IMG/VR virus record: IMGVR_UViG_3300025141_000919
Span: 1 to 21,402 of that record
DNA from: a virus
Strand: one strand, 5' to 3'
Length of the DNA: 21,402 bases
Both the position numbers and the translations under genes were made by a program. The notes below the pieces were generated by a model. That model was not told the origin of the DNA. It saw nothing but the letters and a program-made list of their open reading frames with translations, and made no database searches. This document shows, one piece after another, positions 6,161-21,402 of this stretch. Position 1 is the stretch's first letter. Each line of letters starts with the position of its first letter.

Positions 6161-9100
6161 ATGTCATCTATCGACCGCAGATATAAATTTATTTCACCCG
6201 GTGTTTTTATTGATGAAATCGATAATTCACAACGGCCAAGGGCTCCAGCCCCGGTTGGGCCAGCCATTATTGGCAGAACGGAGCGCGGACCAGCGCTTAA
6301 GCCGATAACAGTTTCTTCATTTTCAGAATTTATTGAAGCTTTTGGCAATCCAGTCGCTGGTGGCTCTAGCGACGATGTTTGGAGAAACGGTAATTACACA
6401 TCGCCGACGTATGCAGCCTACGCTGCGCAAGCTTGGCTTAAAAACTCATCTACGGCAACGGTTGTAAGGTTGCTTGGCGCCGAGCATGGTGGCGCGACCG
6501 CCGCCGGCAAAGCTGGGTGGCAGACTACTGCTCTTACTGATGCAGGGGCATCAAGTGGCGGCGGCGCATATGGCTTATTTATTTCCACAAATACTGCTGG
6601 TTCAGGGCCAAATACGACTCGTGAAACCGGCGCGTTGGCAGCCATTTTTTACTGCAACGAGGGCTGTTTTGAGCTTTCGGGCGCCATTCGTAATCCGTAT
6701 GAGAAATCTGGTGGCTTAGGTGATCTTTCAGCTACTGGCACATGTGCCATGATTCAAAATGTTGGCAGCAACTATGAATATATTGGCCAGATTAAAAACG
6801 GGGCCGGCACACTGCAGTTAAAAACAAACTTTAATTTTAATCCAAACAGCGAAAAATACATTAGAAAAGTATTTAACACCAACCCAGTTAAAACGAATGC
6901 TGATATCAATTCTAGCACAGTAACATATTGGCTAGGCGAAACTTTTGACAACTGGATGGACTCTCAACTTAAGGAATACAGTACTGCCACGACAGGTAGT
7001 ACAGTTGGATTTGTTGTTGGTCTTTTGGCTAGTGGTTCCGGCGTTACCGGCGATCAGGCAAAACATCGCCATGGTATGAAAGACAGTACAACTGGCTGGG
7101 TGTTTTCACAAGATATATCAACGAACTCTGGTAGTTGGACCAGCACCGCTGTTGGTGTGGCACTTGAGTCTGTCCAAAATCTGTTTTACTTTAAAACAAT
7201 GGATTCGGGTGAAGCTACACAAAGAAAGTACAAAATTTCCATTGAGGATATTAGACCTTCATCAAATAATACGGATCCATATGGTTCATTTTCAGTGTCC
7301 GTTAGACTCGCTACAGATACTGACAATGCACCCAAAGTTGTTGAGAAGTTTTCAAGCTGTAACTTGAATCCCAATTCAAACAACTATGTTGCAAAGAAAA
7401 TTGGCACTGAATATCGAACGTGGGACGACACCAATAGAAAATATACAATCAAGGGTGAATACCCCGGTCGTTCTAACTTTATTAGAGTTGTAATGAACGA
7501 AGATGTTGATAGCGGCTATCACGACACACAATGCTTGCCGTTTGGTTGTTATGGTCCAAAAACCATTATTCCGTTTGCCGTGTGTAGTGCTTCGAACGGT
7601 GTTGCATATGAATACCCGTCTTCACCTTTAGTATATACCGCAACTGGTGCATTGAACGTCAGCGACGAACTCTGGAAGACGAAGGAGCTTGAAGATGCCG
7701 CATATGTTAAAGGCGCAGACTCGATTATGAATTCTTATGCTAAGAGCGGCGAAGCTGGTATTGGACCAGTATTTGTACACTTGGGTTATGGTAGCCTCAC
7801 CGCTTCGATGTATTTCCCAGAACTAGGTCTAAGAGAAGACAGCAAGTCTGGTTCTTTGGCTAATCCAAAGAGTGCTTATTGGGGTGCGACTTACAATAAA
7901 TATAATTCAAATCAACATGATCCAAGCTTTGTTGATACAATTAAGTATATAAATCACAAAGATTCAATCACAACTGGACTCTTGGAAGATTCGTGGATAT
8001 TTACCTTGGACGATCTAATGATTAGTTCCAGTCATGGCTATTGGGCTGTCAACAAAAGAGCAGATCAGAAATCTTTTACGACTGATGGTTCTGGTCACCC
8101 GGGCGTTGATACTGGCACATGGAAAGACCTATTAAGAGCCGGCTGGGGCAAGTTTACCGTTCCACTGTATGGCGGCGATGACGGTCTGGACATTACAGAG
8201 AGCGATCCATTTAGAAATAGCCAATGGACTGGTACTCCAACTGATGTAAATAGCTATTCATATAACTCGGTCAAGAGGGCTATTGATTCAATTGCCGATC
8301 CAGATGAAGTTGAGATTAATGCAGCTACAGCACCCGGCATTACTAATGAGTCATTGACTAATCAGTTGATGGAAGTGTGCGAAGCTCGCGGCGATGCTTT
8401 GGCTATCATTGATGTCAAAGGCGGCTTTAAGCCGAAGTCTGAAAATGCAAATAGTTTTGCAAGTCGATTAGGTAGTATTGATACAGTAGTTGATAATCTG
8501 CAGGATCGCAACTTGAATACAAGTTACGGTTGCGCTTACTACCCGTGGGTTAAGATTTCAGATTCGATTAACGCCACTACGCTGTGGGCACCGCCTTCAG
8601 TTGTTGCTCTGGGTGTATTCTCTAGCACCGACATGAAGGAAGCACCTTGGTTCGCGCCTGCTGGCTTCACCAGAGGCGGCTTAAGCGACGGTGCGGCCGG
8701 TATACCGGTTGTGCAGGTCGAAGCGCGGCTAACAAAGGATGAGAGAGATGATCTCTATCTAGCCAAGGTTAATCCGATTGCGCAATTCCCGCAAGAAGGG
8801 CTGGTCATATTTGGCCAAAAGACCTTGCAGGCAGCGCCATCCGCGCTTGATAGAATTAACGTTCGCAGGCTCATGATTTTCCTTAAGAAGGAAATCTCTA
8901 GAGCGGCGAAATCACTCTTGTTCGACCCAAATACGAAAGTAACTTGGAACAGGTTTGTTGGAATGGTTAAGCCATTGCTGTTGAGTGTGAAAGTCAGATT
9001 GGGATTGGAAGACTTCAAGTTGATCCTTGATGAAACAACCACGACTCCTGATTTGATCGACCAAAACATAATGTATGCGAAGATCATTCTTAAGCCAACA

Positions 9101-9166
9101 AGAGCAATCGAGTTTATTGCTGTTGATTTTGTAATCACGGATTCAGGAGCATCGTTTGAAGACTAA
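6161..9166 (+). CDS. 18: Contractile tail sheath protein, gp18-like (unusually large)
   Basis: Subunit of the contractile sheath around the tail tube. The N-terminus has the sheath signature FISPGVFIDEIDNS and VGPAIIGRTERGPALKPITV. The C-terminal domain (about residues 845-1001) has QFPQEGLVIFGQKTLQ, NVRRLMIFLKKEISRAAKSL, NRFVGMVKPLLLSVK and a final strand (IEFIAVDFVITDSG), the conserved handshake/core region. At 1001 aa it is much longer than T4 gp18 (659 aa). The extra length lies in the middle, rich in Gly, Ser, Asp and Asn, as expected for variable outer domains. AAGGAG at 6147-6152 supports the start. The gene appears to be a single-gene unit between two copies of the motif, with a hairpin behind it. 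Confidence 0.93.
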   Translation: MSSIDRRYKFISPGVFIDEIDNSQRPRAPAPVGPAIIGRTERGPALKPITVSSFSEFIEAFGNPVAGGSSDDVWRNGNYTSPTYAAYAAQAWLKNSSTATVVRLLGAEHGGATAAGKAGWQTTALTDAGASSGGGAYGLFISTNTAGSGPNTTRETGALAAIFYCNEGCFELSGAIRNPYEKSGGLGDLSATGTCAMIQNVGSNYEYIGQIKNGAGTLQLKTNFNFNPNSEKYIRKVFNTNPVKTNADINSSTVTYWLGETFDNWMDSQLKEYSTATTGSTVGFVVGLLASGSGVTGDQAKHRHGMKDSTTGWVFSQDISTNSGSWTSTAVGVALESVQNLFYFKTMDSGEATQRKYKISIEDIRPSSNNTDPYGSFSVSVRLATDTDNAPKVVEKFSSCNLNPNSNNYVAKKIGTEYRTWDDTNRKYTIKGEYPGRSNFIRVVMNEDVDSGYHDTQCLPFGCYGPKTIIPFAVCSASNGVAYEYPSSPLVYTATGALNVSDELWKTKELEDAAYVKGADSIMNSYAKSGEAGIGPVFVHLGYGSLTASMYFPELGLREDSKSGSLANPKSAYWGATYNKYNSNQHDPSFVDTIKYINHKDSITTGLLEDSWIFTLDDLMISSSHGYWAVNKRADQKSFTTDGSGHPGVDTGTWKDLLRAGWGKFTVPLYGGDDGLDITESDPFRNSQWTGTPTDVNSYSYNSVKRAIDSIADPDEVEINAATAPGITNESLTNQLMEVCEARGDALAIIDVKGGFKPKSENANSFASRLGSIDTVVDNLQDRNLNTSYGCAYYPWVKISDSINATTLWAPPSVVALGVFSSTDMKEAPWFAPAGFTRGGLSDGAAGIPVVQVEARLTKDERDDLYLAKVNPIAQFPQEGLVIFGQKTLQAAPSALDRINVRRLMIFLKKEISRAAKSLLFDPNTKVTWNRFVGMVKPLLLSVKVRLGLEDFKLILDETTTTPDLIDQNIMYAKIILKPTRAIEFIAVDFVITDSGASFED

Positions 9167-14691: not shown

Positions 14692-17600
14692 ATGGCAGAA
14701 ACTCCAAAAAAACAACGCGCATGGGACCGAATTGTCGCGCAAGACGGCGCTTTATTAAAAATAATTGACGGTGTTATTGAAAAAAATCTGCACCCAGTCT
14801 TCGCGGCGAGACCTCCAGCTTCGAACGCCGCTACGCTTAAAGCAGTAAGAAAAGATCTTTTTTATGCGCTTAAAGAAATACAGGGTTTTATCCCCGAACA
14901 ATTTAAAAGCAGCCCGCAGCAGATGGCGGTTAATCCTAAAAGCGCTCATCCGTGGTTTTGGGCTGAAGATCAAGCCAATGCAATCCCTAAAGTCAACGGG
15001 GTGCTTGAAAAGTACACGTTCCTCGACACTTCGGGCTCCTATATTGACACCACAGAACAGGCTGTTAATGAACTTGACAAGGCGGATGTGAAGACTTTAG
15101 TGGTAGCTATTGCCAACCACTCTTCCAAGATTGAGACAGAACAAGAAGAAATAGTCGAAGAAACAACAAAAGACGAAAAAGAGCGTGAAGAAGCCGGCGC
15201 AATAATGGGAGATATTGCAGAAGCTCAACAACTTATTTTATTTAAAGAATATATTAAAAGCGAAAGCAAACTACATCCGGCTGGATCTTCTGGCATTTCG
15301 GCCGAAGTAGACATCGCCGGCCAAAAAAAGCCTGCAAAATGGAGAAGCGCGACACCGGAAATGAGAACGCTGGTCACTAAAAATAAAAAAGCATCATCTT
15401 TAGAGTTATATTCTAAATTAGTGACGAGTAAGTTCGATCCAGAATTTTTACGCATCAACAACGCGCAGTGGTCCTTGTTAGTTCCTAAAATAACTTTAAA
15501 AAATATAGAATTTGTCAACAAGGGGGGTATACATAAAAAAGTTCCGGGGTCAACAAAATATTTCTTTTTTTCAGATTTCCTTCAGCCCAATAGTTTAAAA
15601 AATCTAACAAGTAATAAAATTGGTCGCGGAGATGGAGTTGGCCTTAAAAATGCATCTATTGAGCTAAGGCAAGAACACTTCGCAGATAAGAGATACGTTG
15701 TTAAAATATCGATTTTCTTTGAGAACGCACAAACAATTTTTAAACATCATGTGGCAACTAAGGCCGCTGGGAAAAATGAAGATGAAGCTGGTGTCAACAA
15801 AAAAACTCCAAAAAAGCGCCCACAAGCTGCAGATTTTGTTGATTTGTTGAAGCTGCCCGGTGCGGATGAGAAAGCGCCGCTTGGCCCGGGCCGGTACAAA
15901 CAGTGGCATCTTACTTATGGTTGGGCAGTGCCTCCAAAAAACAGCTTGATAAGCGAAAACATGAGAACGTTTATTCAAAAGCTTCAAACAACGTTGGTAT
16001 TAAGCATTTACCGTTGGCAATTTAAGTTCGATCAAGACGGTTCTGTTGTTTTAGATGTTGATTTTTTAGCTGATGAAGATCATCGAGCGTCTAGCAACAT
16101 GCTTTATTCAAAAAAGGCTGAGCTTGGCATCCGAAGGGGCAAAAAGGCTTATGAAGAGTCTCACAAAAAGGCCGAGAGGGCGAAGGCAGCTTTAGATACT
16201 TATAAAGGCTCAAAGGAGTTAACTCTTCGTCGCACCCGGGAACAGGATGCCGGCTTTGGCCCGGAAGAAAAAAAGAAATACAACGAATTAAAGAAAAAGA
16301 AAGAAACAGATTTAGATAACTTCACAGACGATGAGCAGAGCGAACTCACCAAACTAGAAAACGCAAAAAAGAATGCACTAAGGAGAGGTGGCGGCATCAC
16401 CGCCGATCAGCGAATAGAAAATCTTCAAGAACAATATGAAGATGCTCTTGATATATCGGCAGGAATGAGCAATGATTATCAACAAAAAATTTATAGTAGT
16501 TTTATCAACGAGTTGCTTAAAACGCAAAGAATAATTGTAGGTGTTGCCGAGCGTAGCTGGAAAAAGAGGAAAGGAGACAAAAAAGCATCTAATTTTAAAT
16601 ATAGTTTCACTTCTCACTTCAAAGTTAATCCCGGCTCCGGTGCAAAAGTAGCCGCGGCCTTAGCTGGGACAGTACAAGACACGCACGATGCAGCTAACCT
16701 TGAAGCAGTTAAAGAGACTCACGGCAACGTAACTGATGATGACAAGGCGGCGACTAAAGCTGCCGAATATCAGCTTTTAAAAGGAACTGAAGCATTAATT
16801 AAAGATTTAAAAATAAAACCGCAAAAAGGGGCCAGCGTTGGTACCATGAATGATGTAGTTGTTATTCCATATTTCTTTTTGGGTGATATTATTGATATAG
16901 CTTATCAAAACCATAGATCTCGCGCCGGCAACGTTGCTCAACCAATATTGGGTTCTTTAGATGTTGATTTGGCCCGCCGAGTGAAGGGCAAACCGGTGCC
17001 AACGGTTAAAAGAGATATTAGTAGAATTCCCATCTCTTTTACAAACTTTATGTTGTGGTGGAATAATAAAGTTGTAAGAACACAAAAAGAAGTTTGGGCC
17101 TTCAAGCCGTTTTTGCGGGAAGTCTTCCAACAGTTTGTGGGTAAAATAATTGATGAATATGATCCGCTTCATATAAAATATTTTGGTGGCAAGGCGGATA
17201 AAAAAGTTTGGCACAACACAGAGGCGGCTATAAACATAGAACAAGTTGACACACCTTTTGATATAACGCATTGGCAGTATCGGGGCCCCAGAAAATACGA
17301 CATCGATGCCGATAAAGTTTTAGCCGCTAAATCAATATTAGCTGGCAAACCAACCGCACACCGAACAGATGAGTTTCATTCATATTTATTTATATATGGC
17401 CAAGCTGGGCGCATTTATTTAGACTGCAATCCAAGAAAAAATATGGAAAGTGGAATATATCATTTTTACGTCGGAGGCGACGGCGGTATTATGAAAAGCA
17501 TAGAATTTAATGTGGTGCCAAACGAAATGCGACGTACAGTGCAAGTTTTGGCTGCAGCCGAAGATAAAAAGAACAACCCCTTCTTAGAACAATATGATGT

Positions 17601-17859
17601 AACAATAAAAATGAGGGGGAATAACATATTTAGGCCGGGAGTATTAATATATGTTGACTTAAGTTTGATAGGCTTTGGCAAATCAAACCAGACAAATACA
17701 ATTTCTTACGAGTATAACCTAGGCGGCTATTATAGAATAATCAAAACTGATCATCAAATAAGTGGCGATGATTATGAAACCACCATAGTGGCGCGTACTG
17801 ATGGTTTTAGTGGAAAGGGAATAATGGCGAAACACCAGCCCAAGAAGGAAAAGAAATAG
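14692..17859 (+). CDS. Large baseplate hub protein, gp27/gpD-like C-terminus
   Basis: Predicted central hub of the baseplate. The C-terminal region (about residues 950-1040) reads NPFLEQYDVTIKMRGNNIFR, PGVLIYVD, then GYYRIIKTDHQISGDDYETT. This is the typical hub ending in which a beta-barrel 'GN..i.PG..i.vd' is followed by 'GYYri.kv.H.isg..w.T'. Before it lies a segment with many Trp and Tyr (PRKYDIDADK, FHSYLFIYGQAGRIYLD). Residues about 480-590 are highly charged and probably coiled coil. At 1055 aa it is far larger than T4 gp27 (391 aa), so several domains may be fused. I see no lysozyme or metallopeptidase motif. The start follows the gp53-like stop by 3 bases with weak SD. Confidence 0.7.
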   Translation: MAETPKKQRAWDRIVAQDGALLKIIDGVIEKNLHPVFAARPPASNAATLKAVRKDLFYALKEIQGFIPEQFKSSPQQMAVNPKSAHPWFWAEDQANAIPKVNGVLEKYTFLDTSGSYIDTTEQAVNELDKADVKTLVVAIANHSSKIETEQEEIVEETTKDEKEREEAGAIMGDIAEAQQLILFKEYIKSESKLHPAGSSGISAEVDIAGQKKPAKWRSATPEMRTLVTKNKKASSLELYSKLVTSKFDPEFLRINNAQWSLLVPKITLKNIEFVNKGGIHKKVPGSTKYFFFSDFLQPNSLKNLTSNKIGRGDGVGLKNASIELRQEHFADKRYVVKISIFFENAQTIFKHHVATKAAGKNEDEAGVNKKTPKKRPQAADFVDLLKLPGADEKAPLGPGRYKQWHLTYGWAVPPKNSLISENMRTFIQKLQTTLVLSIYRWQFKFDQDGSVVLDVDFLADEDHRASSNMLYSKKAELGIRRGKKAYEESHKKAERAKAALDTYKGSKELTLRRTREQDAGFGPEEKKKYNELKKKKETDLDNFTDDEQSELTKLENAKKNALRRGGGITADQRIENLQEQYEDALDISAGMSNDYQQKIYSSFINELLKTQRIIVGVAERSWKKRKGDKKASNFKYSFTSHFKVNPGSGAKVAAALAGTVQDTHDAANLEAVKETHGNVTDDDKAATKAAEYQLLKGTEALIKDLKIKPQKGASVGTMNDVVVIPYFFLGDIIDIAYQNHRSRAGNVAQPILGSLDVDLARRVKGKPVPTVKRDISRIPISFTNFMLWWNNKVVRTQKEVWAFKPFLREVFQQFVGKIIDEYDPLHIKYFGGKADKKVWHNTEAAINIEQVDTPFDITHWQYRGPRKYDIDADKVLAAKSILAGKPTAHRTDEFHSYLFIYGQAGRIYLDCNPRKNMESGIYHFYVGGDGGIMKSIEFNVVPNEMRRTVQVLAAAEDKKNNPFLEQYDVTIKMRGNNIFRPGVLIYVDLSLIGFGKSNQTNTISYEYNLGGYYRIIKTDHQISGDDYETTIVARTDGFSGKGIMAKHQPKKEKK

Positions 17860-17870
17860 GAAATTAATTA

Positions 17871-19160
17871 ATGGTATATAGAACTGGAAAAGAAACTAGC
17901 CCCCTTGCGCTTGCTGCAAAACGGATTCTTTATGAGGTTACTGCGGTGCCTTCTATTTCCGGTGTCCGCGTGTTTGAAGGGTTGTCTCGATTTTATGGTC
18001 TTAAGAATTCCGATGATAATTATGTAATACCAAATCCGGAATATATTAAACATGTGAGTAGTTCAGATACGGTTTTAGCTTTAGATTTTGTCGCTGCAGC
18101 CTTCGAAGACTTCCAGAAATTATATGTAGAAATGATACAGTCTGGGAAAGCTTCGAATGAGTCGGTCTATACAAATATAATTTTTGAGCCATTCGAAGGG
18201 TGGTATAATTTTGAAGAGCAATATAGCCATAACATTCAGACTCTTATAGATCAAATTAATAATATTTTTTTAAGCGAGCACAAACAACAAAAGAAAATCA
18301 AGAATATAGATGATTATATTAAATCATTTATGAATTTCATTCCTTTGCTAAGCTTATTAAAGATAACTAGGGCTAAAATGTTATCTAATGTTTTAACAAA
18401 GAGGGGCGCGTCAGGGCTTATAATAAAACTAGTAGATGAAAATGAAAATGATGATCAAACTAAAGTAGACGAATATATAAACGATCTAAATTTCAAAACT
18501 GTTGTAACTCTTGCCGAACAAACTGGATTTTATGTAAGTAAAAATTCTCCATGGACTTTGGTTGCAAACTTAGGATCTCCGTTGATGAAGTTTTATATGC
18601 AACCGGATGAATATGAAGAGGAAACTAAAAAGATTTTTGATGATTTGTTTTTAAAAGAACAACAGAAGGCGGCAAAAGATAATATTCCGATGAATCCCGA
18701 TACTACTGAAAAATTAAGAGAACAAGCACAAAAAGAAGCAAAAAAGAAAATTATGTCAACAAAGTTTCCTATAGAAGATATATTTGAAAAATATTATTTT
18801 GAAACAGCTTTCGCTGATTTTAATACCATTAAAAACATGTTTTATTATGGGTATACTTCGTTTTTTAATATTTACCCAGAAGCAAGAAATGTAAAATTTT
18901 GTCCAATCGCACAGAAAACTATTCAAGTATATACGCCAAGAAAATATATCTCTGAAGAAGAATATGATCAAAAATTTGATGATAAATTTTTCTTAAAAGC
19001 ATTTCTTGTTATCAAGAACTACGAAGTTGGTAAAATATTTTCGAAAAGGCAGATGCAGGAGCATCTCAAACAAATCTATTTAACCAAGAAAAGAGTTGAC
19101 ACATCCGCGGCAATAATGTATATTAATAGTATATTTAAAGCCTATATGGACTCTGTGTGA
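17871..19160 (+). CDS. Conserved-looking unknown virion protein, 429 aa
   Basis: I cannot name a function. The sequence resembles uncharacterised structural proteins of marine T4-like phages as I remember them: a 'VLALDFVAAAFEDFQKLYVE' helix early, GASGLIIKLV, TGFYVSKNSPWTLVANLGSP near residues 222-241, and FEKYYFETAFADFNTIKNMF near 303-322, followed by a cysteine in VKFCPIAQ. It is rich in aromatic and charged residues, largely helical, with no signal peptide or transmembrane segment. AGGAA overlaps the hub stop. It is the last tail-type gene of the operon, and its stop overlaps the GTG start of the DNA polymerase (GTGA), so the two are coupled. A baseplate or tail-associated role is inferred from position. 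Confidence 0.75.
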   Translation: MVYRTGKETSPLALAAKRILYEVTAVPSISGVRVFEGLSRFYGLKNSDDNYVIPNPEYIKHVSSSDTVLALDFVAAAFEDFQKLYVEMIQSGKASNESVYTNIIFEPFEGWYNFEEQYSHNIQTLIDQINNIFLSEHKQQKKIKNIDDYIKSFMNFIPLLSLLKITRAKMLSNVLTKRGASGLIIKLVDENENDDQTKVDEYINDLNFKTVVTLAEQTGFYVSKNSPWTLVANLGSPLMKFYMQPDEYEEETKKIFDDLFLKEQQKAAKDNIPMNPDTTEKLREQAQKEAKKKIMSTKFPIEDIFEKYYFETAFADFNTIKNMFYYGYTSFFNIYPEARNVKFCPIAQKTIQVYTPRKYISEEEYDQKFDDKFFLKAFLVIKNYEVGKIFSKRQMQEHLKQIYLTKKRVDTSAAIMYINSIFKAYMDSV

Positions 19161-20338
19161 TTTTTCAATCTTTAGACAATAAAAATAAATGTAAAGACAT
19201 CTATTGTAATAACAAGATTCACAAAAAAATACCAGTCGATTTGACCGGCACATGGGATTATGTTGATGTGCCCTATGATATAATGTATGCAAAGCTGTAT
19301 TGTGGCGGCAAATCCATTGAAGATGTTTGTCCCGATCATTTGAGAAAGCAGTGGCTCGATGCAAGCCAGAGGCTTAAAGCATATTTAAATTCTTTTATGC
19401 AAGCGAAAATTTCACTAGAAGAGCACTGTTTTTACGACTTAGTGCCACAACATTTCCTTTTGGATTTTTTTGAAGTGAAGAATGAAATAACAAAACATGT
19501 TTTTGACAATTATAAGCGTCCTGAAAATTATGATTTTTTGTTGCAACTTACAAAAATTGCGGAAGACATTAAAAATAGACCTTTAAAGCTAAAAATAAGC
19601 AATTTAAACAACTTAGGACATCAGCTAGCAACTAGAAACTTTTTAAAGCGTCTAAAAGGAGCAGAAAAGCGCGTTAAATATAATATTTATGGGACGAAAA
19701 CGGGCAGGCTAACAACAGAGCCAAAATCTTTTCCTATTTTGACGCTAAAAAAGGAATATCGTACCATTTTAGAACCAAATAACGATTTGTATGTAGAGTT
19801 GGACTTTAATGCGGCTGAGCTAAGAACGCTCTTAGCTTTGTGTGATAAAGAGCAGCCAAAAGAAGACATACATGAGTGGAATGCTAAAAACGTATTTCGT
19901 GGACTACAATCACGTAGTGAAGCCAAGGAGCGTATTTTTGCTTGGTTGTATAATCCAGACTCTAAAGATTATTTAGCCAACAGAGCTTATGATAGAACAA
20001 GCATTAAAGAAAAGTATTGGGATGGTAAAATAGTAACAACGCCATTTGGCAGAAAAATAGAGGCGGATGAATTTCATGCTTTAAACTACTTGATTCAAAG
20101 CACAACGGCAGACATGGTATTACGTCAGTTGATTAAAGTTTATGAATTGCTCAAAGAACATAAGTCGCATATAGCATTTGTGATACATGATTCGTTGGTG
20201 ATCGATCTAGCGAAAGAAGACAAACCTTTGTTGAAAGATATTTTTAATGTTTTTTCGAAAACTGATTTGGGAGAGTTTTTAATTTCAGTTAAGGCCGGCA
20301 AAAATTTTGGTCAAATGAAGGAAATAAAATGGACATAA
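19157..20338 (+). CDS. polA: Compact family A DNA polymerase without exonuclease domain
   Basis: Template-directed DNA synthesis. Family A motifs occur in order: K181-TGRLT (182-186), motif A L215-DFNAAELRTLLAL with catalytic D216, motif B R253-SEAKERIFAWLY with R253, K257, F261 and Y265 at the spacing of R754/K758/F762/Y766 of E. coli Pol I, N310-YLIQSTTAD like 'N..QGTAAD', and motif C H344-D345-S346. The Glu usually following the catalytic Asp is Ser. Phe at the 762 position predicts discrimination against dideoxynucleotides. At 393 aa there is room for thumb, palm and fingers only, and the fingers are short (Y265 to Q314 is 49 residues against 83 in Pol I). The GTG start overlaps the preceding stop as GTGA, with no clear SD. 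T4 itself uses a family B polymerase. Confidence 0.9.
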   Translation: MIFQSLDNKNKCKDIYCNNKIHKKIPVDLTGTWDYVDVPYDIMYAKLYCGGKSIEDVCPDHLRKQWLDASQRLKAYLNSFMQAKISLEEHCFYDLVPQHFLLDFFEVKNEITKHVFDNYKRPENYDFLLQLTKIAEDIKNRPLKLKISNLNNLGHQLATRNFLKRLKGAEKRVKYNIYGTKTGRLTTEPKSFPILTLKKEYRTILEPNNDLYVELDFNAAELRTLLALCDKEQPKEDIHEWNAKNVFRGLQSRSEAKERIFAWLYNPDSKDYLANRAYDRTSIKEKYWDGKIVTTPFGRKIEADEFHALNYLIQSTTADMVLRQLIKVYELLKEHKSHIAFVIHDSLVIDLAKEDKPLLKDIFNVFSKTDLGEFLISVKAGKNFGQMKEIKWT

Positions 20339-21183
20339 TTGGATTCGGCGGCGCCGGCTGCAACGTTGCAAAAACGTTTAAAGACTATCCTCAGTATAAG
20401 ATTCATTATATAGACGTAGGCCTGCGCGGCGCTGATAGCTGTTCTCTTTTAAGAGCTAGCACCATGGAAGAGGCAGAAACAAATGTGCCAAAATTTTCAA
20501 AACTTGTTAAAAAACTAAAAGGTGAAGTTGTTTTTATATGTGCCGGCGCAGGAGTAAGCAGTGGTTCAATTTTAGGAACTTTAGAACAATTCAAAGACTT
20601 GCCGATAACTGTGATCTACATTAAGCCAGATTATGATCTTTTGAGCGAAAAAGAAAAACAAAGGGAAAGAGTTGTGCATGGAGTATTACAACAATTTGCT
20701 AGAACAGGGTTATTAAAGCGCATGTATTTGTTCGATAATGCAAAAATAGCTGAGATACTGGGTGGGCTTTCGATAGTTGAATATCACCCTAAAATCAATC
20801 AAATGATCAGTAATTCTTTTCATATGCTGAATTATTTTAAAAATATAGATTCCATTATGACAAATATGTCAGATCCTCAAGAAATTAACAGAATTTCAAC
20901 GGTTGGAATTTACAATTTTGAGGACGAGGCCGAAAAATATTTTTATGACATTGTAAATCCGCGAGAAAAGCATTTTTACTTTGCCTTTAATGAAGAAACG
21001 CTAAGTAAGGAAAAAACCCTTTTAAATAAAATAAGCGAACAGATAAAAAGTGCTGGACAATCTGAGTTTACTGCTGTATCATATGATATAACAGCGACGA
21101 CATATGAGGAAAATTTCGCATATATCGAAGCTCATACAAATTTCATTCAGGGCGAAAAAGTGGTTGACAAAAGCTCAGAATAG
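20329..21183 (+). CDS. Divergent tubulin/FtsZ-superfamily protein (phage cytoskeletal GTPase candidate)
   Basis: Likely a GTP-binding, filament-forming or FtsZ-interacting protein. The N-terminus MDIIGFGGAGCNVAKTF matches the FtsZ first loop (GVGGAGGNAV). Residues 69-80 (FICAGAGVSSGS) align with FtsZ FVTAGMGGGTGT, keeping G75, S78, G79 and S80 but losing two glycines. Further parallels are ITVIYIKPD (93-101, like 'VVTKPF'), FDNAKIAEIL (135-144, like 'PNDRLL'), a helix with N157 where FtsZ/tubulin have a base-binding Asp/Asn, and D182-x-x-E185 like the tubulin T7 loop 'NVDLTE'. At 284 aa it is somewhat shorter than PhuZ. It overlaps the polymerase stop by 10 bases (ATGGACATAA). Its last codons contain the -35 box of gene 32. 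The call is from motifs only. GTPase activity is unproven and the altered G-box is a real caveat. Confidence 0.65.
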   Translation: MDIIGFGGAGCNVAKTFKDYPQYKIHYIDVGLRGADSCSLLRASTMEEAETNVPKFSKLVKKLKGEVVFICAGAGVSSGSILGTLEQFKDLPITVIYIKPDYDLLSEKEKQRERVVHGVLQQFARTGLLKRMYLFDNAKIAEILGGLSIVEYHPKINQMISNSFHMLNYFKNIDSIMTNMSDPQEINRISTVGIYNFEDEAEKYFYDIVNPREKHFYFAFNEETLSKEKTLLNKISEQIKSAGQSEFTAVSYDITATTYEENFAYIEAHTNFIQGEKVVDKSSE

Positions 21184-21191
21184 GTTATAAT
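21164..21191 (+). promoter_or_regulatory. Sigma70-type promoter for gene 32
   Basis: Perfect -35 TTGACA (21164-21169), a 16-base spacer and perfect -10 TATAAT (21186-21191). Transcription would begin near G21198. The -35 lies inside the last codons of the tubulin-like gene. This host-type promoter differs from the ACTATTTAT motif before structural genes and fits early or constitutive expression of the ssDNA-binding protein. Confidence 0.8.
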
Positions 21192-21200
21192 GTATATGCG

Positions 21201-21221
21201 GGCTGGGAAAACGACCCAGCC
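21201..21221 (+). promoter_or_regulatory. 5' stem-loop in gene 32 leader (possible autoregulatory structure)
   Basis: GGCTGGG (21201-21207) pairs perfectly with CCCAGCC (21215-21221) around AAAACGA, almost at the predicted mRNA 5' end. An A/U-rich stretch and the SD AAGGAG (21231-21236) follow. Loop bases AAAA could pair with TTTT at 21227-21230 to form a weak pseudoknot, recalling the T4 gene 32 translational operator. It could also end upstream transcription, though the U-tract is poor. Confidence 0.5.
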
Positions 21222-21246
21222 TATAATTTTAAGGAGAAAAAATAAA

Positions 21247-21402
21247 ATGGCGTTAAACATGAAGAAAATGAAGAACAAGATGTCGTCCCTGCAAAGCGGC
21301 GGCAACGGTAAGCGGTGGTTCTGGAAGCCGCAGGATGGTGAGCAGACTGTTCGAATCGTTCCAGATTCAGATGGCGACCCCTTTCGGGAGTTCTGGTTTC
21401 AT
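21247..21402 (+). CDS. 32: Single-stranded DNA-binding protein, gp32-like (3' truncated)
   Basis: Start of the replication/recombination ssDNA-binding protein, running off the right edge after 52 codons. The basic N-terminus (MALNMKKMKNKMSSLQSG) corresponds to the cooperativity (LAST-like) segment of gp32. Next comes RWFWKPQDGEQTVRIVPD, the 'w.p..g.qtvRilP' strand that opens the gp32 OB-fold in T4-like phages, and then PFREFWFH, like 'PF....vH'. The zinc-binding Cys/His residues would follow outside the window. AAGGAG stands 10 bases upstream. It has its own sigma70-type promoter and a structured leader, so it is regulated separately from the late operon before it. Its position beside a DNA polymerase supports the identity. 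Confidence 0.82.
   Translation, partial: MALNMKKMKNKMSSLQSGGNGKRWFWKPQDGEQTVRIVPDSDGDPFREFWFH

Follow-up and report, generated by a model that had tools for sequence, protein, structure and literature searches.

A tubulin/FtsZ-like gene next to a family A DNA polymerase gene

The DNA analyzed here, called the window, is the whole of a stretch of 21,402 bases from a virus record (IMG/VR record IMGVR_UViG_3300025141_000919). On its plus strand, at positions 20329 to 21183, an open reading frame (ORF) with an ATG start encodes a protein of 284 amino acids with a predicted tubulin/FtsZ fold. An initial annotation, made from the sequence alone, had described this ORF as a tubulin/FtsZ-like gene of a T4-like phage, and the coordinates and length that it gave were correct. 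It had also placed the gene between a family A DNA polymerase gene (polA) and gene 32, which holds, as the polA ORF lies on the 5' side and a gp32-like gene on the 3' side. However, its description of the gene as fused by overlap to the polymerase gene was mistaken: these are two separate ORFs, and the tubulin-fold ORF overlaps the end of the polymerase ORF by 10 nucleotides. Upstream in the window are gp23 (PF07068, E = 5.9e-71) and genes for tail sheath, tail tube, baseplate and tape-measure proteins.

Comparison of the gene with those of seven close relatives gave ratios of nonsynonymous to synonymous substitution rates (dN/dS) of 0.08 to 0.23, with dS above 1 in four of the pairs. Judged by these comparisons, the tubulin-fold ORF is a real gene under purifying selection. 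The motifs to which the initial annotation had drawn attention were all found in the protein, namely GFGGAGCN (residues 5 to 12), AGAGVSSGS (residues 72 to 80), DNAKI (residues 136 to 140) and D182xxE185. Their presence goes beyond chance, given the low dN/dS values and the conservation of G5, G7, G10, N137 and N157 among the homologs.

Predicted fold and sequence homology

An AlphaFold2 model of the window protein, built from an input alignment of 34 chosen representative sequences (alignment A3), had a mean predicted local distance difference test score (pLDDT) of 91.1 and a predicted template modeling score (pTM) of 0.90. A Foldseek search of the PDB with this model gave 738 matches at E ≤ 0.001, and the best 50 of these were all FtsZ, TubZ or tubulin, the top match being FtsZ (E = 1.6e-11; TM score, 0.71). 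Structural alignment by VIA-align matched the model to CetZ (3zid_B; Z = 24.1, root mean square deviation [rmsd] 2.9, 254 aligned residues, 14% identity), TubZ (4ei7_B; Z = 23.4, rmsd 3.2, 273 aligned residues) and FtsZ (2r6r; Z = 22.5, rmsd 3.6, 268 aligned residues), and the matches covered residues 1 to 277 or more. A second model, that of a relative sharing 35% identity with the window protein (L043), had a pLDDT of 89.3 and the same fold, with structural matches to CetZ (Z = 24.5) and TubZ (Z = 24.3). No subfamily was assigned, because CetZ and TubZ were tied and FtsZ was 1.6 lower in Z. The predicted structures contain the N-terminal nucleotide-binding domain, helix H7 and the C-terminal activation domain, with secondary structure elements in the order S1-H1-S2-S3-helix-S4-H4-S5-H5-S6-H6-H7, followed by coil and strand S7. 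These models bear out the tubulin/FtsZ fold proposed in the initial annotation, and the tubulin core is present in them.

Homology was also seen between sequence profiles. When the family profile was aligned by hhalign with a profile of seven FtsZ-type sequences (L104 was left out of the FtsZ alignment, A4), the probability was 91.9 and the score was 55.2, whereas none of 100 column shuffles scored above 24.7, the reversed profile scored 18.8 and an unrelated polymerase scored 17.9. In this alignment the T1 loop, the T4 loop, an E..K pair in H4 and Asn137 fell in register with their FtsZ counterparts. The match to PhuZ was weak (probability, 54.6; score, 39.0; shuffles, 21.0 or less). Among 26 chosen representatives (alignment A6), the Pfam family matched by most was PF00091 (11 of 26 at E ≤ 0.1; best, 1.4e-4). 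No family member passed its curated cut-off of 33 bits, the maximum being 22.2 bits (E = 2e-4) for relative L015, in a test that is not sharp: 201phi2-1, which carries PhuZ, likewise had no record over the cut-off.

The window protein alone had no Pfam match over the cut-off and, in a sequence search of the PDB, nothing below E = 0.49, and profile A3 matched Rossmann domains of KtrA in PDB sequences and no tubulin homolog at E ≤ 10. Taken by themselves, the single-protein Pfam search and the A3 search of the PDB would leave the case for homology open. In PHROGs, all matches were weak and were to families whose function is unknown (window protein, best E = 0.011; phrog_11528 with L035, E = 0.0018; phrog_28539 with L015, E = 0.0067), and NCBIfam named no consistent family among the 26 members, with ftsZ appearing once (E = 0.057). 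Together, the predicted structures and the profile comparison strongly support the protein being a divergent homolog within the tubulin/FtsZ superfamily, a membership that we claim for fold and homology only.

GTPase loops and conserved residues

Residue conservation was counted in 116 full-length homologs, after 7 of 123 distinct sequences with 220 or fewer aligned residues were dropped. The T1 loop GFGGAGCN (residues 5 to 12; positions 20341 to 20364) is largely kept, with G5 in 110, G7 in 108 and G10 in 110 of the 116 sequences, where 4 or 5 rows are gapped at these columns. The T4 loop GAGVSSGS (residues 73 to 80; positions 20545 to 20568), whose register comes from the hhalign alignment to FtsZ, is a degenerate form of the signature GGGTG[ST]G. 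Position 77, the last-but-one glycine of the signature, is glycine in none of the 116 homologs, so that the signature is broken in all of them, and position 76 is threonine in 9 and lysine in 38. In the T3 region, glycines that never vary stand out in alignments of FtsZ and of PhuZ, whereas no T3 glycine motif was visible in residues 30 to 51 of the same 116 rows, where the column richest in glycine is 31 (55/116), followed by 34 (28/116). Because both the T4 signature and the T3 motif were looked for and found wanting, the protein is not filed as FtsZ, TubZ, PhuZ or CetZ.

Elsewhere in the predicted pocket, the S6/T6 motif DNAKI (residues 136 to 140; positions 20734 to 20748) carries the presumed base-contacting Asn137, which hhalign aligned to the ND of FtsZ and which is asparagine in 92 of the 116 homologs. 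The core helix H7, assigned by DSSP on the model, spans residues 149 to 172 (positions 20773 to 20844), and its N157 is found in 96. In FtsZ, helix H8 comes after the T7 loop. The stretch equivalent to T7 (residues 179 to 188; positions 20863 to 20892) was placed only by its position after H7, and no H8 was seen after it in either the window or the L043 model; because hhalign in global mode aligns T7 poorly, what is said here of T7 and H8 is based on model secondary structure. At position 185, the place of the presumed T7 acid, 83 of 116 homologs have an acidic residue, although the sequence register to FtsZ T7 is unreliable. R188 is present in 110, and the position of D182 is acidic in only 55. 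Of the residues that the initial annotation had named, most homologs keep those of the T1 loop as well as N137 and N157; position 185 is partly kept and D182 is not. Its suspicion of weak or absent hydrolysis of guanosine triphosphate (GTP) is strengthened by the family-wide alteration of T4, the lack of a visible T3 motif and the missing H8 in both models. On the alignments and models, the GTPase looks degenerate across the family.

At the end of H5, in the motif LQQFART (residues 120 to 126; positions 20686 to 20706), Q121 and R125 are each invariant in 116 of 116 homologs. By the topology of the predicted fold, we infer that the ends of H4 and H5 are on the side opposite to the nucleotide. 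Conservation of both the pocket and this opposite side would be compatible with head-to-tail self-association, with partner binding or with internal bonds.

Comparison with known tubulin homologs

The protein resembles FtsZ in its predicted two-domain fold and in the elements that align in register with it (T1, the T4 region, the H4 E..K pair and Asn137). It differs in its broken T4 loop, in having no visible T3 motif and no H8 in the models, in its length of 284 amino acids, in an identity of about 10 to 15% and in the location of its gene in a phage replication module. The fold is also like that of TubZ, a plasmid and phage partition protein (Z = 23.4 for the window model and 24.3 for L043), but here the GTPase loops are degenerate and the gene is linked to a DNA polymerase gene. 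CetZ, which has a role in cell shape, was the best structural match to both models, tied with TubZ, but CetZ proteins are archaeal and share 14% identity with the window protein. PhuZ is, like this protein, a phage-encoded tubulin homolog of similar size, and gave a weak profile match; unlike it, PhuZ keeps a GTDGAGK-type T3 and a GGGSGS-type T4 loop and occurs in other phages beside other genes. PhuZ was not among the 50 structural-aligner matches listed for either model, which excludes nothing.

Among the best fold matches were BFVD entries for phage proteins that bear the name FtsZ or tubulin (A0A6J5RW92, A0A8S5UFG9 and A0A8S5USZ9), led by A0A6J5RW92 from an uncultured Caudovirales phage (E = 6e-13; TM score, 0.77), but these are 347 to 452 amino acids long and share 9 to 16% identity. 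The phage tubulins known so far serve to position phage nuclei or to segregate prophages of the plasmid-like kind. Two families whose members have likewise diverged far within the superfamily, with changes in its usual elements, are FtsZl1 and FtsZl2: according to Makarova and Koonin (2010; PMC2875224), FtsZl1 keeps the GGGTG(S/T)G loop and has no identifiable T6-H7, and FtsZl2 was discovered by a search for that loop. Both are families of bacteria and archaea; in the present family H7 is present and T4 is broken. Tubulin homologs of phages, PhuZ and TubZ, are described in the parts of the literature drawn on here (PMC3678025, PMC13282480); in the portions of the open-licence literature covered, we found no account of a tubulin homolog in the replication module of a T4-like phage.

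Linkage to the polymerase and gp32 genes

A scan of IMG/VR with a polymerase-only profile (alignment A7, 12 sequences) found 589 matching stretches, and the best 80 were inspected. In all 80 loci the tubulin-fold gene was next after polA, directly or behind a short extra stretch, and the worst family match had an E value of 2.7e-12 on a contig cut inside the gene. The start assigned to the tubulin-fold gene, taken from the profile alignment and the nearest ATG, GTG or TTG, overlapped the polA stop in 51 loci and was 30 nucleotides or less from it in 12 more. A gp32 gene was found downstream in 75 of the 80 and UvsX in 62; in the five loci lacking gp32, the contig ends 3 to 444 nucleotides past the tubulin match. 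The 78 full-length proteins from these loci formed 64 clusters at 90% identity and 23 at 50%. Searches based on the tubulin-fold protein likewise gave loci with polA 5' and gp32 3' wherever the contig extends past the gene, and UvsX follows in many of those that are long enough, but not in all (not in L028). Each of eight large contigs had one family match, one contig being cut inside the gene. The family profile A6 found nothing at E ≤ 1 in T4, P-SSM2, immuto or 201phi2-1, and did not recognize the PhuZ of 201phi2-1.

The window polymerase (positions 19157 to 20338, plus strand; PF00476, E = 6e-16) is a short family A enzyme of 393 amino acids, with GTG as its listed start. No exonuclease domain was matched in it, and what we take to be motif C reads HDS, not HDE. 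In eight contigs from relatives, 66 to 204 kilobases (kb) in length (four of them 176 to 204 kb), there was one PolA frame each, and no PolB and no gp45-type clamp were found at E ≤ 1. The absence of a clamp is only suggestive, as the search used one gp45-type model, which found the T4 clamp at E = 2.9e-35 but a P-SSM2 frame of 228 amino acids, presumably the clamp, at only 0.0037; the search did not extend to DnaN-type clamps, and the contigs may be incomplete. These observations raise the question of how a 393-amino-acid PolA with no recognized clamp copies genomes of at least 176 kb.

A candidate promoter of gp32

Between the tubulin-fold gene and gp32 is a promoter-like sequence of the sigma-70 type, TTGACA-16-TATAAT (positions 21164 to 21191, plus strand), which matches the consensus at 12 of 12 positions; 0.5 weaker sites would be expected by chance. 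Its TTGACA lies within the last codons of the tubulin-fold gene and its TATAAT just past the stop. An alignment of the window with seven close relatives shows TTGACA in eight of eight rows, and the second hexamer as TATAAT in two and TATACT in six. A hairpin follows at positions 21200 to 21222 (plus strand), which also matches a terminator-like pattern; its fold z-score is -1.67, and 14 of 200 shuffles fold equally well. The hairpin is kept in eight of eight rows, one of them altered on both sides of a pair, and both it and TTGACA persist in two relatives with an earlier protein stop. The gp32-like single-stranded DNA-binding protein gene (phrog_1192, E = 1.2e-5), as listed, starts at 21190, but the likely true ATG is at 21247, after an AAGGAGA ribosome-binding site, and from there the gene runs off the window at 21402 (plus strand).

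In the window and these seven relatives, a separate promoter seems to serve gp32, and the tubulin-fold gene would therefore be in one unit with polA and not with gp32. The conserved C-terminal sequence VDKSSE was considered as a feature of the tubulin-fold protein and rejected, being better explained by promoter DNA: relatives L003 and L004 stop earlier yet keep TTGACA. The stretch from 21164 to 21222, with promoter and hairpin, is perhaps a site of gp32 control.

Possible roles of the tubulin-fold protein

The linkage to polA points to the replication machinery, instead of the roles proposed in the initial annotation, which were positioning of DNA or heads and poisoning of host division, and it is from this linkage that we infer a replication role. 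The loss of the loops, taken with a pocket that is kept and an H5 end that does not vary, suggests a self-associating scaffold with little GTP turnover. Our preferred, still tentative reading, whose chances we put slightly below even, is that this divergent tubulin/FtsZ homolog is a core component of the replication module of uncultured gp23-type (T4-like) phages and acts as such a scaffold. The protein would be made together with the small family A polymerase and would act at the site of phage replication, holding polymerase and template together. Its nucleotide pocket would be kept for head-to-tail association through the pocket and the opposite face with the conserved H4 and H5 ends, and GTP hydrolysis and fast filament turnover would probably be dispensable. 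We judge a replisome-associated scaffold to be a better account of the protein than a PhuZ-like spindle or an FtsZ poison. It is also possible, if on balance improbable, that throughout a group of T4-like phages the tubulin fold was recruited as an obligate replisome component, either a processivity partner of the short polymerase, in which no exonuclease domain and beside which no clamp was recognized, or a static scaffold, with GTP hydrolysis given up. If true, this would be a new role for the tubulin fold and a test case for the loss of GTPase activity by a cytoskeletal GTPase; a fold of the cell skeleton would have joined the machinery that copies viral DNA.

Several observations weigh against a replisome scaffold. 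All 12 loci that went into the A7 polymerase profile have the tubulin-fold gene, and the inspected loci were only the best 80 of 589. In 17 of the 80 the tubulin-fold gene begins 36 to 309 nucleotides after polA, in some of them behind a small extra ORF. Overlapping genes are common in phages, and gene order by itself is not function. Flavobacterium phage immuto has a distantly related polymerase (24% identity over 59%), and there polA is accompanied by two hypothetical genes, a single-stranded DNA-binding protein gene and a recombinase gene, with no family member; the tubulin-fold gene is therefore a property of this group and not of every such polymerase. Furthermore, the characterized prokaryotic tubulin homologs known to us polymerize with GTP, and the T1 loop and the base-contacting asparagine are largely kept here, leaving room for GTP-driven assembly.

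The first alternative is a cytomotive filament like those of PhuZ or TubZ, in which polymerization with GTP would move or center phage DNA, replication sites or heads and the divergent loops would form an alternative active site. The full-length fold, the substantial conservation of T1, N137 and N157 and the mostly acidic position 185 speak for such a filament, but a T4 loop that has lost its glycine at position 77 in every homolog, the want of a glycine-rich T3 motif and the absence of H8 from both models make this reading doubtful. In addition, the part of 201phi2-1 examined around PhuZ has no neighboring gene annotated as a replication gene, most genes there being hypothetical.

Accessory subunits are known for other polymerases, such as thioredoxin for T7 gp5 and the aminoacyl-tRNA-synthetase-like subunit of mitochondrial Pol gamma. 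A strict accessory subunit of this kind, serving as a processivity or fidelity factor and not self-associating, would accord with the polA linkage in 80 of 80 loci, with the single PolA frame and the lack of PolB and gp45-type clamp matches in the eight contigs, and with the invariance of Q121 and R125. The clamp search was made with one gp45-type model, which gave the P-SSM2 frame only a weak match, and we regard this alternative as unlikely.

The initial annotation had also suggested a poison of host division that copolymerizes with host FtsZ, and such a poison might instead cap FtsZ. An FtsZ fold whose catalytic loops have degenerated would be in keeping with capping, but a place next to polA in every inspected locus over such wide divergence would be unexpected for an accessory anti-host gene, and when the structures are aligned only about 10 to 15% of residues are identical to FtsZ, so that this role is very improbable. 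That the protein is another Rossmann protein, of the RCK/TrkA type that binds nicotinamide adenine dinucleotide (NAD), misread as a tubulin is scarcely credible: profile A3 did match a KtrA tandem construct (E = 3.8e-5), with E values of at least 0.03 for the remaining KtrA rows, and did not match any tubulin homolog, the window protein had no Pfam match over the cut-off, and the 26 members gave matches to TrkA_N (6; best, 0.02), the saccharopine dehydrogenase NAD domain (5; 3.9e-4) and Pyr_redox_2 (4; 0.0012), but with both models the listed structural matches were to tubulin homologs and covered both domains and H7, and the FtsZ profile score is well above the shuffle maximum.

Distribution and other features of the loci

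Searches by tblastn of 50,697 phage records with four clade representatives gave no match at E ≤ 10 for two of them and, for the other two, best E values of 2 and 1, from partial matches to other kinds of genes. No relative of the L043 protein or of the polymerase profile was found in species-level genomes, in searches that reach close relatives only, and we therefore propose no host.

Among the loci with additional sequence between polA and the tubulin-fold gene, L137 (6182 to 6493) and L145 (2639 to 2950) have an ORF of 103 amino acids that by eye resembles nucleoside triphosphate pyrophosphohydrolases; that of L145 had no Pfam match at E ≤ 0.01. Different ORFs are found at this place in L028, L029, L030 and L035. 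On the 5' side of polA in the window are two ORFs, at 14692 to 17859 (1,055 amino acids) and 17871 to 19160 (429 amino acids), whose best match was only E = 0.12, and L127 and L161 have ORFs of similar size at the same place. The tail sheath ORF of the window (6161 to 9166) encodes 1,001 amino acids, roughly double the 496 positions of phrog_23, the sheath profile that fits it best, and longer sheath profiles of 915 to 1,135 positions match it too.

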